Positions 40,666 through 47,967 of a stretch of 64,000 nucleotides of DNA are shown here, piece by piece; the first letter of the stretch is position 1; each line of letters opens with the position of its first letter. Source of the DNA: Streptomyces misionensis (lineage in GTDB: Bacteria > Actinomycetota > Actinomycetes > Streptomycetales > Streptomycetaceae); NCBI RefSeq assembly GCF_900104815.1, contig NZ_FNTD01000004.1, positions 4,418,501-4,482,500 on the forward strand, in the 5' to 3' direction. The notes beneath the pieces were generated by a model that saw only the letters and a list, made by a program, of their open reading frames with translations, ran no database searches and was not told where the DNA came from. The position numbers and the translations under genes were made by a program.

Positions 40666-43188
<2,523 letters not shown>

Positions 43189-43210
43189 GCCTCCGGCGGT
43201 TCAGCTGAAA

Positions 43211-43244
43211 AAAGGGGCCGGTGCCTTCGGGCACCGGCCCCTTT
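43211..43244. terminator. bidirectional terminator between clpC and the NACHT gene
   Basis: A perfect 15-base stem (AAAGGGGCCGGTGCC / GGCACCGGCCCCTTT) with a TTCG tetraloop; the A-tract on one side and T-tract on the other suit both directions. The last base of the right arm is also the last base of the NACHT gene's stop codon. Confidence 0.93.
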
Positions 43245-46200
43245 CAGTGTTCTTCCACGGTGAGTTCGGCGTTCGGGAAGAGTTCCCGGTACCGGGACGC
43301 GGTGACGGAATGGCCGGGCTGATTCACCAGGACCACCGAGCGCAGGCCCGGTAGCCGGTGCGCCAGGGGCGAGAGGTCTTCGGTGCCGGACATCATGCCG
43401 ACCTGAAGAACCTCGATGCCGGGAAGGACCGGCATCGGGTCGACGGAGTGCGTCAGCACCCTGCCGTTCAGGTCGATGCGGGTCAGCCGGGGCAGTTCCG
43501 CGACTTCACACCAGTCGTCCTCCGTCAGCTCCGTGGCCAGCGATCCGAAACTCAGGGTGCGCAGAGACGCCCACCGACTCAGCCCGCGCAACCCCGTGCT
43601 TTTGATGCTGTGCACGCCGAGGAAAAGGGATTCCAGCGGGGCGTCCACCGGCAGAGCATCGGTGAGGTCGGCCCCCGGCAGTTCCTGGTGTACGGAAAGG
43701 TCGGTGAGGGATCGGAGGGACCGCAGTCCGGTCATGTCGGCGATGCCGCAGGCGAGCGTGGTGAGCGGGAGAACGGAAAGTCGGTCCACTCCGGTGGCCG
43801 GACAGCCGAGCACCCCAAGTCGACGCAAACCACTGAACGGAACAAGAGCGCCCAGATCGGTGAGGTCAGGGTTGTCCAATATGAAAAGCGTTCTCACGGC
43901 CTCGGGGGCCGGCACAGCGGCCAGGATGTCCTCGGCGCTGTGCGGGCCGCCGAAAGACAGCTGGGGCCAGGGACGCATCAAGCCCAGTGCCGCGCGCTGT
44001 TCGGACGAGTCGCAGTTCAGGCGGAGACCTGCCCGGCTCAGATGATCCAGCACCTCCGCCGCATACTCCCCGGCGTCGAACCGCCCCCACGTCCCCACCA
44101 ACTGCCGCCGCACATCCAGATCCGGATGCTCCCGGAACCGCCGCAGCACCCCCAGCGCCCCCTCCGGCTCCGCCTCCCCCAGGAGGGACGCGGTGATCAC
44201 CACGCCCAGTGACTCCGCGGCCGTCAGTCCCTCCGGGCCCGGCAGCAGCTCCAGCACCAGCGGGCCCGCGCCGGCCAGGGACCGCGCGTCCTCCTTCGTC
44301 CGCGGCGGGATCAGCGCCGCCGCCCGCTCCTCGACCTCCGCCCGCACCCCCGCGTCCAGGGCCACCGCGTGTTCCAGGCAGGCGAGGGCCAGCAAGGTCA
44401 GCCGGGGGGTGTCCCGGGCGAGCAGCTGCCGGAGCAGCCAGGCCCGTTCCCGGGGGCGCGCGTGGGCGACGGCCATGCGGATGACGTCCTCCCACTGGGT
44501 GTCGTCGGCGTGGCCGAGCAGCACCTCCAGATGCCCTTCCCCGACCGCGTACCGCGCCCCCAGGTAGTCCTGGAAGGTGCGGTGGACGAAGTCCACGACG
44601 CCCTGTGCCGGCTGCCGCAGCAGGCCGCTGCGCAGCAGCAGCTCCCGCAGGACCGCCGGCGCGTCACCGCCCGCCGAGGCCACCGCCGGAAGGCACCGCT
44701 CCACGATGCCCTCCGCCGTGCCGGCGTCCATCTCCGTGCGGCCGCTGAGCACCAGCGCGTACGCGAGCCGTTGCAGCAGCTCCAGCTGCGCCTCCTCGCC
44801 CAGTTCGACGGCCATGCCCCGCTCCCGGTCCCGGCGCGCGAGCAGCATCGTGAGGGCGGCGTCGTACAACTCCTTGCGGCCGGTGGGGAGATAGCCCCGG
44901 CGTTCGCGGTGCAGGGCGCAGATCAGGCCGCACATCAGGGGGTTGGTGGTCAGCCGGGCCAGATCGCGCTTCGTGCGCAGGGAGTCCAGCAGCGGCGCCT
45001 CGAACTCCGGGGCCCGCGCCGCCTCGTGCCAGCGGCGGACGAAGGTGGCGACCTCCGAGCGGCGCATCGGGGCCAGGGTCAGCTCCCGGAAGCCCTCCTG
45101 GGCCAGCCAGTCGGCGCGGACGGCGGTCGGGCGGGAGGTCAGCAGCCAGCGGTTGCCGGGGTAGGCCGAAAGGAGGGAGCGCAGCCAGTCGCGGGTGCGG
45201 TGGCGGTCGGCGGCCGGTATCTCGTCCAGGCCGTCCACGAGGACCAGGCCCCGGCCCGCCGTGAGCACGCGTTCGGCCCAGCCCTCCGGCGGGGTCAGCG
45301 GGCAGCTCACGGCCTTCAGGAAGCCGTCCGGGGAGGGCAGGGTGCCGGTGCGGATCAGGGTGCGCAGGGGGAGGACGAAGGGGACGCGGCCGCCGTCGCG
45401 GGCCGCGGTGACCGCGAGCCACTGCACCAGGGTGGTCTTGCCGGAACCGGCGTCGCCGCGCAGCAGCACCCGGTCGTCGGCGAGCAGCGCCTCCTCGGCC
45501 CGCAGCCGGCCGGTGACGGCCGGCGGGTGCTCGCCGGTCGCCTGGTCGGGCGGGGCGTCCCCGGCCGTCGTCGCCTCCAGGCTCAGGTAGGCGACTTCCA
45601 GGGGCCAGCGGTCCGGGGAGTCGCGCAGGTCGACGCCGTAGATGGTGATGTGGTTGTGGCGGTCGGCCACGTACGGCAGGTAGCGGCGCTCGAAGGCGGT
45701 GTCGCGCCCGTCGGGGCGCGGGGTGCGGACGATCAACTCGTCCACCTTGGCGATCAGTTCGGCCTGGGCGCGGCTCTGTTCCACGAGGGTGCGGGCCACG
45801 AAGGACGACCGCCGGGTGAAGAACTCCAGGATCTGGAGGCAGGCCCATTCGGTCGCCGAGTCGAGGAAGTGGCGGGCGTCCGTGGAGAGGCCGTCGAAGG
45901 CCCTCGAGCCGTCGCTCAGCCGTCTCGCCAGCTCGCGGTACCCGAGGCGCACCGCCTGTACGTCGTCCATGTCCAGCTCGCCGAGCGTCAGCAGACGTCT
46001 GGCCAGCGCATCGGCCACCGCGCTCCGCTCGTCCGCCGGGAACGGTGCCTCGCCCGGGGACTCCACCGCCCGGTCCACGATCCGCTCGGCGAGCCTGTGG
46101 ACGTCCTTCTCGCCGAGCGTCCGTTTCTCGCCCCGGAAGGTCACCAGCGCGGACAGCCGCACCGGCCTGTCCACCAGGCCCGCCCCGGGGGCGTCCCGCA

Positions 46201-46270
46201 CGATCAGCTTCCGCACCAGCGGGCCGATCGCGGCGGACGCCAGCTTGCCACCCAGTACCGTCGGCTCCAT
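43244..46270 (-). CDS. NACHT-domain STAND NTPase with C-terminal leucine-rich region (NLR-like)
   Basis: A 1008-aa signal-transducing ATPase. Residues 1-190: a helical N-terminal domain of unknown role (AIGPLVRKLIVRDAPGAG, ADALARRLLTLGEL), possibly the effector. NACHT core: Walker A GDAGSGKTT with K278, Walker B-type LVLVDGLDEIP (about 342-352), NRWLLTSRPTAV, then winged-helix/superhelical parts (VDFVHRTFQDYLGARYAV). Residues about 740-1000: repeated leucine-rich units (LRRLGVLGC, LRSLRSLTDLSVHQEL, LRTLSFGSL, LTRIDLNG), the probable sensor. No signal peptide or clear membrane span. The order effector-NACHT-LRR matches animal and plant NLRs and the bacterial bNACHT antiphage proteins. The 3' part of the gene (sensor) has more A/T-ending codons than its neighbours. 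Defence is inference. Confidence 0.85.
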   Translation of the reverse strand: MEPTVLGGKLASAAIGPLVRKLIVRDAPGAGLVDRPVRLSALVTFRGEKRTLGEKDVHRLAERIVDRAVESPGEAPFPADERSAVADALARRLLTLGELDMDDVQAVRLGYRELARRLSDGSRAFDGLSTDARHFLDSATEWACLQILEFFTRRSSFVARTLVEQSRAQAELIAKVDELIVRTPRPDGRDTAFERRYLPYVADRHNHITIYGVDLRDSPDRWPLEVAYLSLEATTAGDAPPDQATGEHPPAVTGRLRAEEALLADDRVLLRGDAGSGKTTLVQWLAVTAARDGGRVPFVLPLRTLIRTGTLPSPDGFLKAVSCPLTPPEGWAERVLTAGRGLVLVDGLDEIPAADRHRTRDWLRSLLSAYPGNRWLLTSRPTAVRADWLAQEGFRELTLAPMRRSEVATFVRRWHEAARAPEFEAPLLDSLRTKRDLARLTTNPLMCGLICALHRERRGYLPTGRKELYDAALTMLLARRDRERGMAVELGEEAQLELLQRLAYALVLSGRTEMDAGTAEGIVERCLPAVASAGGDAPAVLRELLLRSGLLRQPAQGVVDFVHRTFQDYLGARYAVGEGHLEVLLGHADDTQWEDVIRMAVAHARPRERAWLLRQLLARDTPRLTLLALACLEHAVALDAGVRAEVEERAAALIPPRTKEDARSLAGAGPLVLELLPGPEGLTAAESLGVVITASLLGEAEPEGALGVLRRFREHPDLDVRRQLVGTWGRFDAGEYAAEVLDHLSRAGLRLNCDSSEQRAALGLMRPWPQLSFGGPHSAEDILAAVPAPEAVRTLFILDNPDLTDLGALVPFSGLRRLGVLGCPATGVDRLSVLPLTTLACGIADMTGLRSLRSLTDLSVHQELPGADLTDALPVDAPLESLFLGVHSIKSTGLRGLSRWASLRTLSFGSLATELTEDDWCEVAELPRLTRIDLNGRVLTHSVDPMPVLPGIEVLQVGMMSGTEDLSPLAHRLPGLRSVVLVNQPGHSVTASRYRELFPNAELTVEEH

Positions 46271-46326
46271 CCGCCACCCCCGTGGTCGTACGACGTCCCG
46301 AAGACTACGGACGGAGCCTAACCGGG

Positions 46327-46968
46327 TTACGACAACTGGCCGTCGTAGTCGGGCAGTTTGAAGGTGCGGTCGGCGTGGCCGCCGGAGAGGTCGGTGGCGC
46401 TGTTGCCGATGTTGGCGATGATGTCGTAGCCCCTGCTCTCGATGCCGGCGCGCTGGGCCGTCTTGTAGTCGGCGACGTTCTTGAAGAGGTCGACGAGGCC
46501 GCGCACGTAGAGGCCGGAGACCCGGTAGCCGTCGTACTCCAGGTTCCACTTGGTGGGCGCCTCGATGATGCCCGGGCGGGCGGTGACGAAGAAGAGGGAG
46601 ACGCCGTGCTCCTGGGCGTACTCGGCGACGTCCAGGACCGGCCCGTTGGCCGCCTGCGGGACCTGGAAGCCGAGGTCGGTCGCCAGCGCGGTGTTGTCGA
46701 TGTCGAGGACGATGGCCTGCTTCTCGCCCGGTCCGGCGTCGGCGATGCGCTCCTTGATGTAGGGCAGTGCCTGGTCCATCACGGTCCGGCAGTCCTGCTG
46801 CCAGGTGGCGTAGTCGACCTTGCCGGTGGTGGCGCTCGCCGTCGTCGCCGCGGTGGCGGCCTGGGCCGGGCCGGCGTCCGCCGCCCGGGCCGGGGCGGCC
46901 ACGGCGGCCAGGGCGGCCACGGCGACGGCGGTCACGGTGATGCGGCGCGCCAGGGGGCGTGTGGTCAT
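46327..46968 (-). CDS. secreted HAD-family acid phosphatase
   Basis: A 213-aa exported phosphatase of the class B/HAD superfamily. The N-terminal signal peptide (RRITVTAVAVAALAAVAAPARA) has an AxA cleavage site near residue 30. The catalytic motif DIDNTA supplies the nucleophilic Asp (DxDxT), FFVTARPG is motif II, and NIGNSATDLSGG near the end gives the magnesium-binding Asp. Substrate unknown; relatives hydrolyse nucleotides or other phosphomonoesters outside the cell. ATG 46968 has GAGGAA upstream. It lies 56 bases after the NACHT gene start on the same strand. Confidence 0.88.
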   Translation of the reverse strand: MTTRPLARRITVTAVAVAALAAVAAPARAADAGPAQAATAATTASATTGKVDYATWQQDCRTVMDQALPYIKERIADAGPGEKQAIVLDIDNTALATDLGFQVPQAANGPVLDVAEYAQEHGVSLFFVTARPGIIEAPTKWNLEYDGYRVSGLYVRGLVDLFKNVADYKTAQRAGIESRGYDIIANIGNSATDLSGGHADRTFKLPDYDGQLS

Positions 46969-47418
46969 CGGTGGGGGTTCCTCTCGCATCCGTCAGGAGA
47001 TGGCAGGTGCATGATCTGTGGTGCGGGTGGCGTGAGGGGAACCGTAGGGTTACCGGACGGTAGGTGGATAGGGGTCTGCGTCACATTCACGGGCCGCGCG
47101 CATACGCCGGCCCGGTGATAAGGCGCACAGGCGAAATGTCCCTTACTACCCCCGATAGTGGGATGGGCCGACCGGGTAAAGGGTCGGCAAAAGGCGTGCC
47201 GATCCCGGAACCCGGGGTCATAGGAGCACGTCGGGGGCGTAGGTGCCCCGGTGGTCACCGGGCCTGTCAAGGTGATGGCGGGCCGGGGGCCCTCTACTAC
47301 CGCGCGCCGTAGAAGCGTCGCTTTTACCCGGCGGGGCGATCGGTTACCAAGGGATGGCCGCCGCGGTGGACGTCTGTGCGCCGGGTGGCCGATCTGTCCC
47401 CGATTTCACGAGGTCCCG
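46969..47418. other. 450-base divergent region between acid phosphatase and M23 endopeptidase
   Basis: No gene is visible. It must hold both promoters. Toward the M23 gene there are several hairpins: GCCGACC...GGTCGGC (47167-47188), CCCGGTG-GT-CACCGGG (around 47247-47262), plus repeated TACTACC-type sequence. The likely long leader suggests post-transcriptional control. I looked for the conserved c-di-AMP (ydaO) riboswitch sequences that precede many Streptomyces wall-hydrolase genes and did not find them. Confidence 0.5.
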
Positions 47419-47967
47419 ATGATCAAGCGCTTCACGTCCCGTGCTCTCCGTACGTCCTCGCTCCGTACCCGTGCCGCCGTCCTGGCCGCCGGTGTCGCTG
47501 TCCCGGTCGTGCTGGGCGCCGGAGCCGCGAGCGCCGCTCCGTCGGCCGCCTCCTGGGTCGACCCGGTGAAGAAGTACTCGCTGTCGGCGGGCTTCAACCA
47601 GTCCGGCGCCCGCTGGGTCGCCAAGCACAGCGGCCAGGACTTCGCCGTGCCGACCGGCACCGACGTCGTCGCCGTGCACGGCGGCACCGTGGTCAAGGCC
47701 GGTCCCAACGGCGCCGGCGACGGCCCCGCGTACGGCAACGCCGTCGTGATCAAGCACGAGAACGGCGTCTACTCCCAGTACGCGCACCTGTCCCGGGTGG
47801 ACGTGCGCATCGGTCAGACCGTGAAGGCGGGCCAGCACATCGCCCTGTCCGGCTCCACCGGCAACTCCACCGGCCCGCACCTGCACTTCGAGATCCGTAC
47901 GACCCCGAACTACGGCTCCGCCCTCAACCCGCTGTCCTACCTGCGCGGCAAGGGCCTCAAGGTCTGA
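47419..47967 (+). CDS. secreted M23 family metallopeptidase (peptidoglycan endopeptidase)
   Basis: A 182-aa exported LytM-type zinc endopeptidase. The signal peptide ends near residue 41 (GVAVPVVLGAGAASAAP). Zinc ligands are in KHSGQDFAVP (HxxxD) and GPHLHFEIRT (HxH); the sequence GQTVKAGQHIALSGSTGNSTGPH is typical. The mature protein is just one small catalytic domain with no binding modules. ATG 47419 follows ACGAGG. It probably cuts peptide cross-links in the wall during growth or germination. Confidence 0.93.
   Translation: MIKRFTSRALRTSSLRTRAAVLAAGVAVPVVLGAGAASAAPSAASWVDPVKKYSLSAGFNQSGARWVAKHSGQDFAVPTGTDVVAVHGGTVVKAGPNGAGDGPAYGNAVVIKHENGVYSQYAHLSRVDVRIGQTVKAGQHIALSGSTGNSTGPHLHFEIRTTPNYGSALNPLSYLRGKGLKV

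Follow-up and report, generated by a model that had tools for sequence, protein, structure and literature searches.

A single gene beside clpC in Streptomyces misionensis, at 43244..46270 on the minus strand of the 64,000-nucleotide stretch of DNA analyzed here (contig NZ_FNTD01000004.1, positions 4,418,501 to 4,482,500; hereafter the window), encodes a bacterial nucleotide-binding leucine-rich repeat (NLR) protein, a known kind of protein that is composed here of an N-terminal NNH1 head, a central NACHT NTPase domain, and C-terminal leucine-rich repeats (LRRs). What would be new is its sensor, an LRR-type hypervariable domain that appears to be diversified through allele exchange on a bacterial STAND protein. 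We hold with moderate confidence that this NLR is an ATP-switched sensor, in which the LRR would bind a foreign ligand that changes fast and clustering would set the NNH1 heads in action.

Architecture of the NNH1-NACHT-LRR Protein

The gene starts with an ATG at 46270 and encodes 1008 amino acids; the preliminary description of this DNA had delimited the frame exactly, leaving unstated the strand, which is minus for the gene and for all of the domains below. Its codon-position GC content (0.76/0.50/0.91, in a window of 72.5% GC) is coding-like, and the single long plus-strand open reading frame (ORF) that was checked, at 44369-46321, is an antisense shadow of it. The NNH1 helical head, residues 8-180 (45731..46249), is located before the NACHT domain and belongs to Pfam family PF22733 (E 1e-55; 189 bits against a cut-off of 27). 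The NACHT domain, residues 267-417 (45020..45472), matches PF05729 at E 9.2e-31 and scores 107.4 bits against a curated cut-off of 26.7, placing the protein in the NACHT clade of the STAND NTPases.

The two motifs by which this core had been recognized beforehand are both in place, and their key residues are invariant across 72 aligned relatives, as is characteristic of STAND proteins: G272, A274, G275, G277, K278, and T280 in the Walker A motif GDAGSGKTT (residues 272-280; 45431..45457), and D346, G347, D349, and E350 in the Walker B region LVLVDGLDEIP (residues 342-352; 45215..45247). Equally invariant are T378, R380, and P381 of LLTSRP (residues 376-381; 45128..45145), which we take to be a sensor-1-like motif. 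A profile of the 72 relatives matches PDB entry 5irl across the NACHT domain (E 7e-6), an entry with an uninformative name that we take to be NOD2; Midasin tops the same search (1e-9), but touches only the stretch ahead of the P-loop.

The approximately nine LRRs, residues 792-1000 (43271..43897), form the hypervariable putative sensor. They are weak in the window protein alone, where Pfam LRR_4 is found at E 0.076, under its cut-off. In a plain sequence search of the PDB, residues 794-971 match a solved 'Rab family protein' (E 2.3e-4), presumably a Roco LRR, and a precomputed LRR domain is present in 18 of the best 120 of 2849 relatives. Among eight relatives chosen for a Pfam scan, several of them for their precomputed LRR domain, six show LRR families at E<0.01, with P0056 and P0233 passing the cut-off, and no LRR family was found in the LRR-less P0122 or the long P0023. 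A repeat-phased conservation pattern in an alignment of 121 sequences, the window protein and the best 120 relatives, further backs the assignment. The order of N-terminal domain, NACHT, and C-terminal LRR that had been read from the sequence is therefore borne out by the Pfam matches to NNH1 and NACHT, the PDB match, and the LRRs of relatives; the preliminary description had allowed that residues 740-1000 might fall outside any LRR or solenoid family, and residues 792-1000 proved LRR-like. The LRR coding part (43262-43915, residues 786-1003) has a GC content of 0.66, compared with 0.75 in the first 660 codons, a drop that both amino-acid make-up and foreign origin would fit. Proteins that join NACHT to LRRs are called bona fide bacterial NLRs (PMC12169576), and both domains lie within this one ORF.

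Hypervariability of the LRR

Across the 121 sequences, the LRR has a mean entropy of 1.47 bits, against 0.70 for NNH1 and 0.58 for the linker and NACHT domain together. Within the nine repeats counted from residue 792, predicted exposed strand positions reach 2.29 bits as compared with 0.61 for the leucine scaffold (P 1.4e-9). Low scaffold entropy is partly expected, because the repeat register was set by eye on the leucines; the more telling comparison is that between the exposed strand positions and the other polar positions of the LRR, which are lower at 1.79 bits (P 0.0026), and polar positions of the body average 0.74 bits. Placing five of the nine repeats one residue late leaves no difference (P 0.19), and shifting all repeat starts by -4 to +5 gives at most 0.53 bits versus 1.68 at zero shift. 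Gaps are rare in the LRR, while its exposed positions vary most.

The same gradient is found in the ratio of nonsynonymous to synonymous substitution (dN/dS), given here as simple counting estimates over non-independent pairs. Among 24 genes compared in 276 pairs, the LRR has a median dN/dS of 0.63, the stretch before it 0.34, and NNH1, the NACHT core, and the helical part 0.22-0.31. Pooled values for 26 close pairs and for all pairs, respectively, are 0.86 and 0.90 at exposed strand positions, 0.39 and 0.29 at the scaffold, and 0.25 and 0.24 in NACHT. Variation is likewise concentrated in the LRR within three of four clusters of close relatives: the 12 members of one, with bodies at least ∼92% identical, show 1.5 bits or more at 50 LRR positions and at none in NNH1, linker, or NACHT; the window protein's own four-member cluster has 35 such positions in the LRR and two in NNH1; and a second four-member cluster has 18 in the LRR, seven in NNH1, and three in NACHT. 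These counts exceed the threshold for plant highly variable NLRs, at least 10 positions at 1.5 bits or more, although that criterion is defined within species (PMC8226289) and the clusters here mix named species.

Two sets of related proteins served to place this gradient. Proteins with a trypsin-like head from the same chromosomal slot (9 of 22 non-NNH1 proteins, those with heads closest to L175) show it as well, with a median identity of 0.68 in the head, 0.82 in NACHT, and 0.40 in the C-terminal 240 residues. By contrast, conservation in 38 LRR-less NNH1-NACHT proteins is highest in the C-terminal half (0.83-0.93, with 0.67 in a last short stretch) and lowest in the head (0.55-0.58). Diversification is thus tied to the LRR and is not a general property of NACHT proteins. 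The linker before NACHT (45485-45595, residues 226-262) is also variable.

Apparent Exchange of LRR Segments

The LRR segments appear to have been exchanged between close relatives. Compared with S. misionensis strain 66 (L009), the window gene has a DNA identity of 91-99% across approximately the first 2.0 kb, 87-89% over the next 0.3 kb, and 71-77% over the last 0.75 kb, with clpC at 98-100%. Among eight close pairs compared, identity falls to 62-69% in L010/L012, to 80-81% across part of the LRR in L018/L042, and to 65-87% in three pairs with L021, with a slight drop in L029/L034 and hardly any in L030/L059. Within the set of 121, the closest match by body and the closest by LRR are different proteins in 90 cases. 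Twenty pairs of proteins from same-named organisms (seven species names, as given by the sources) were also compared, in which bodies are at least 90% identical in 17 pairs, and in 13 of those 17 the LRRs are less than 75% identical. Examples include S. tricolor P0016/P0039 (body 0.988, LRR 0.569), S. achromogenes P0031/P0035 (0.95 and 0.467), and S. murinus P0008/P0012 (0.976 and 0.645); the remaining four pairs agree in body and LRR, such as S. tricolor P0039/P0042 (0.978 and 1.00). By eye, these last two proteins, with identical LRRs, show one differing block in the linker before NACHT.

N-Terminal Heads on a Common Body

The NACHT-LRR body occurs with at least three heads, the joint lying near residue 190, because NNH1, trypsin-like, and Cro/C1-type helix-turn-helix (HTH) heads are all found on it. 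NNH1 is present in 54 of the 75 intact slot ORFs (L157 left out) and missing from 21. Eight non-NNH1 proteins were scanned, six of which (L123, L143, L164, L175, L190, and L200) carry a trypsin-like head above the Pfam cut-off; the match of L157 lies under it and L186 has none. The L175 head finds 20 of the 21 other non-NNH1 proteins by direct comparison, including L186 and excluding L203, and the two non-NNH1 heads compared by eye show His, Asp, and Ser serine-protease motifs. NNH1 and trypsin-like heads occur together at three loci (L123, L162, and L164). The third head, of the Cro/C1 type, is found on three Streptomyces plasmid relatives that align with the window protein from residue 167-192 onwards. 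These plasmid NACHT-LRR-like proteins (L246, L247, and L248) have bodies 42-44% identical to that of the window protein, and it is possible that such an HTH-NACHT-LRR-like protein is a sensor-transcription regulator. On another plasmid, the gene immediately ahead of a trypsin-like-NACHT gene (L249:1997-5655; trypsin match just under the Pfam cut-off) bears the annotation trypco2 family, and trypco2 is known from other conflict systems as a partner of trypsin (PMC7159879).

The preliminary description had seen no known effector motif in the N-terminal domain and suggested that its killing or signaling mechanism could be new. The domain is in fact a catalogued Pfam family, though no assigned activity was found for NNH1, and because of this a new killing mechanism is possible. 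Of the NNH1 positions inspected, L22, F45, G47, D103, A106, and L118 rank with the most constant ones in 121 long forms and 110 other NNH1 proteins alike. The window protein has residues 8, 12, and 16 in a glycine-zipper-like spacing; nearly all of the 121 long forms retain small residues at this helix-1 spacing, and the 110 others do not. The mean hydrophobicity of the first helix is modest, and the conserved membrane-active first helix of HeLo/CC-like pore-forming heads was not found for the NNH1 family as a whole.

Turnover at the clpC-M23 Slot

Relatives of the window protein (E<=0.001) are present in 119 of 150 Streptomyces genomes, and a sample of 296 genomes from the phylum yielded NNH1 in 10, seven of them above the cut-off and six of those seven Streptomyces. 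Where an organism name is given among the best 120 of 2849 relatives, it is Streptomyces; one of the 59 named loci is Actinacidiphila.

The gap between clpC and a gene for an M23 peptidase was scanned by tblastn (E 1e-4) in 147 of 149 clpC-bearing genomes, using the sequence that follows clpC. Scoring covered the 130 of these whose DNA included the right border (M23, TetR, or MFS); the other 17 loci, nine of which hold intact NACHT ORFs, were excluded from the slot count. An intact NACHT ORF, defined as an open frame of at least 800 residues with a NACHT match, occupies the slot in 63 genomes, remnants alone are found in eight (L100, L108, L110, L112, L117, L122, L127, and L146), and 59 show no trace. 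The count of 63 consists of 62 scored automatically and L157, which has an over-extended start, a plain NACHT match, and an open frame; L203 is counted as intact, yet the standard Walker A pattern is not seen in it. Eleven of the 130 genomes carry two or three intact NACHT ORFs at the slot, and L149, outside the 130, carries four. Stops are present in some relatives (L055 and, away from the slot, G094 and G129).

On a FastTree phylogeny of the TetR and MFS flank from 93 genomes (39 with and 54 without the gene), presence changes 24 times, while 100 shuffles of presence give a mean of 29.9 changes and a minimum of 24. Among 31 genomes, NNH1 correlates with flank distance at a Spearman coefficient of 0.47, the LRR at 0.39, and the body at 0.28. 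The NACHT gene is frequently gained or lost and weakly tied to its surroundings. In Streptomyces, the clpC-M23 gap serves as a NACHT slot where genes of this kind turn over. By the same correlations and presence changes, vertical inheritance is weak. The preliminary description had called the place beside clpC otherwise core genome, which fits the flanks and not the slot itself, and strict conservation in every Streptomyces, an outcome it had considered, did not appear: the gene is not fixed in the genus and its LRR is variable.

The slot's NNH1 genes form two distinct size classes, whose tails behind the NACHT match measure 174-193 and 267-390 residues. A short gene occurs in 17 of the 147 loci, seven of which also hold a long one (L120, L149, L166, L206, L210, L221, and L224), and it is possible that a short LRR-less and a long NNH1-NACHT gene in one clpC island form a helper-sensor pair. 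A count by ORF length (15 loci, seven with a long gene too) was set aside, being distorted by over-extended starts; L130 holds two short NNH1 genes, and L206 one short and one long.

Streptomyces plasmids account for 17 of the 78 plasmid records matching the window protein. Two large linear plasmids (L245 and L250) carry near relatives (66-67% identity) in two pieces, un- or partly annotated, that adjoin the same DUF6417, lamin-tail, and HNH genes and are probably related broken copies. Mobile carriage was considered and rejected, with no good match in 50,697 phage records and with the two closest plasmid relatives (H3 and H4) in two pieces and apparently broken.

Chromosomal Context of the Window Gene

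The left border of the slot is clpC (40666..43188, plus strand), which lies beside the NACHT gene, as had been described, and is convergent with it. Between the two lies a stem-loop (43204..43248, strand undefined) with an RNA fold of -37.5 kcal/mol (z -6.8), which is a probable bidirectional terminator. Upstream of the NACHT gene, after a gap of 56 bp, is a HAD acid phosphatase gene (46327..46989, minus strand; PF03767, E 3e-34), found on either side of the NACHT gene depending on the genome. The M23 peptidase gene (47251..47967, plus strand, start uncertain) forms the right border and is followed by genes for a TetR regulator and then an MFS transporter. In most of the nearer named relatives (L009-L046), the genes follow the order GNAT-clpC-NACHT-HAD-M23-TetR-MFS; in some, a neighbor is missing or has moved.

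The window's genome contains a single NNH1 protein and eight NACHT matches, four of them above the cut-off, the window protein included, which does not match the others at E<=0.001. The preliminary description had proposed a single-gene defense system, and this is plausible because the genome holds one NNH1 gene and no defense-operon partner is evident among the neighbors of the NACHT gene.

Comparison with Known Systems

The closest known systems are the bNACHT antiphage proteins, reportedly presented by Kibby et al. in 2023, which share with the window protein a central NACHT domain, an N-terminal effector position, a C-terminal sensor, and a single-gene layout. Known bNACHT proteins protect against phages, and known NACHT antiphage proteins combine a C-terminal sensor, a NACHT oligomerization switch, and an N-terminal effector (PMC12169576). 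Among the STAND sensors tested in the cited work, detection is either by binding to phage proteins that are conserved (PMC10907252) or by way of a host chaperone (PMC12169576). bNACHT25 and bNACHT32 differ in having a nuclease head and NCH1, and clade-14 proteins in their SNaCT tail (PMC12169576), whereas the window protein, known here from its sequence alone, has an NNH1 head and a hypervariable LRR and comes from Streptomyces. The NACHT antiphage proteins EruA and HyoA match only residues 340-574 and 390-573 (NCBIfam; E 1e-15 and 8e-6), the window protein scoring far below the cut-offs of both families. Avs (AVAST) proteins likewise possess a STAND ATPase switch, a C-terminal sensor, and an N-terminal effector (PMC10907252), but their sensor is of the tetratricopeptide-repeat type and binds conserved phage proteins; the window protein has an LRR and no strong PADLOC match, the best being confined to the P-loop region (E 0.0016), and is not placed among them.

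In their variation, the nearest counterparts are plant highly variable NLRs such as RPP13 and RPP1, which show entropy spikes at predicted exposed LRR strands, a near-invariant switch, and allelic series (PMC8226289); they differ in their NB-ARC domain, their CC or TIR heads, and a criterion applied within species, the clusters here spanning close species. An earlier proposal of hypervariable sensing by bacterial STAND proteins concerns C-type-lectin domains diversified by diversity-generating retroelements on NACHT/STAND proteins of multicellular bacteria and regarded as antigen sensors (PMC10907252). These differ in fold and in their retroelement, whereas the window LRR looks, from allele comparison alone, to be exchanged between strains. 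The trypsin-NACHT-LRR proteins of the clpC slot have a homologous body and the same variation gradient, with a serine-protease-like head instead of NNH1. Neither the clpC slot nor hypervariable LRRs in bacterial NLRs were found reported among the open-licence PMC papers that the literature searches listed.

Proposed Mechanism and Alternative Explanations

The variation of the LRR sequence suggests that its concave face would bind a rapidly changing protein of foreign origin, with a phage or other mobile element as the most likely source. As in known NACHT proteins, and consistent with the motifs present here, binding would free an ADP-locked NACHT domain to bind ATP and assemble into a ring. 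The swapping of heads on a common body suggests that this ring would cluster the NNH1 heads, which would then act. The act we favor is a proximity-triggered helical assembly that would halt or kill the infected hyphal compartment; NNH1 would more likely recruit or disable a host component than use a catalytic site of its own.

Several findings weigh against this account. The pattern of LRR alleles does not tell what the ligand is, and a search of 50,697 phage records yielded just two matches, both Vibrio phages aligning over NACHT alone at 22.9% identity. The gene lies outside any recognized defense island, and PADLOC yields only weak P-loop matches (best E 0.0016). At exposed positions dN/dS stays under 1, and because values below 1 come here from counting estimates over non-independent pairs, positive selection is not proven. 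One of the four clusters, with five members, is not hypervariable, having only three LRR positions (and two in NACHT) at 1.5 bits or more. For the head, sequence comparison gives no solved structure related to NNH1 (best E 0.82), no catalytic signature was recognized in it, and a pore-forming helix was rejected as a family-wide mechanism, the helix-1 spacing not being kept in the 110 other NNH1 proteins.

It is unlikely, though conceivable, that the LRR alleles serve self/non-self or kin recognition. They would do so by detecting variable proteins that belong to other Streptomyces or to conjugative elements, whereupon the heads would trigger local death or growth arrest, like fungal NLRs in incompatibility. 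Fungal NLRs of such logic exist (PMC12222747), allelic polymorphism is strong within S. tricolor, S. achromogenes, S. murinus, and S. eurythermus, and relatives are carried on Streptomyces plasmids; however, the 59 genomes without a copy at the slot would be odd for a self-marker. Also improbable is an indirect stress or guard sensor, with the LRR binding a variable host protein, perhaps within ClpC-dependent proteostasis, and phage being only one trigger. bNACHT25 senses phage via the host DnaJ (PMC12169576) and clpC is a constant neighbor, but clpC keeps its place and its right-hand neighbors in those 59 genomes, so the adjacency looks like a permissive 3′ slot, and ClpC is 93-100% identical in 149 genomes while the LRR diverges, which makes it a poor direct ligand. 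A ClpC-linked function was dropped as a leading idea given the 59 of 130 clpC-bearing genomes with no NACHT trace. Relaxed constraint, under which the LRR would be the decaying tail of an old gene and its variation a loss of function, was already disfavored and is very unlikely: the remnants at eight of 130 slots and the stops noted above agree with it, but scaffold leucines are conserved (0.61 bits, dN/dS 0.29-0.39), gaps are rare, exposed positions vary most, and near-identical bodies carry the same or a very different LRR (1.00 or 0.57 in S. tricolor), which argues for allele exchange rather than drift.

The ATP-switched sensor of foreign ligands that we favor may be part of a wider arrangement, which we put forward tentatively, as somewhat short of probable. 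The slot would then be a Streptomyces counterpart of a plant-like resistance-gene locus, in which turnover, tandem arrays, swaps between NNH1 and protease heads, and LRR recombination would together maintain a population-level repertoire of direct-binding NLRs, with LRR-less helpers and with NNH1 as a new death or signaling head. In such a locus, the LRR-less NNH1-NACHT paralogues, with their very conserved bodies, may help the hypervariable sensors. A bacterial NLR whose LRR is hypervariable and exchangeable would signify that resistance-gene-style allelic diversification also arose in bacteria.

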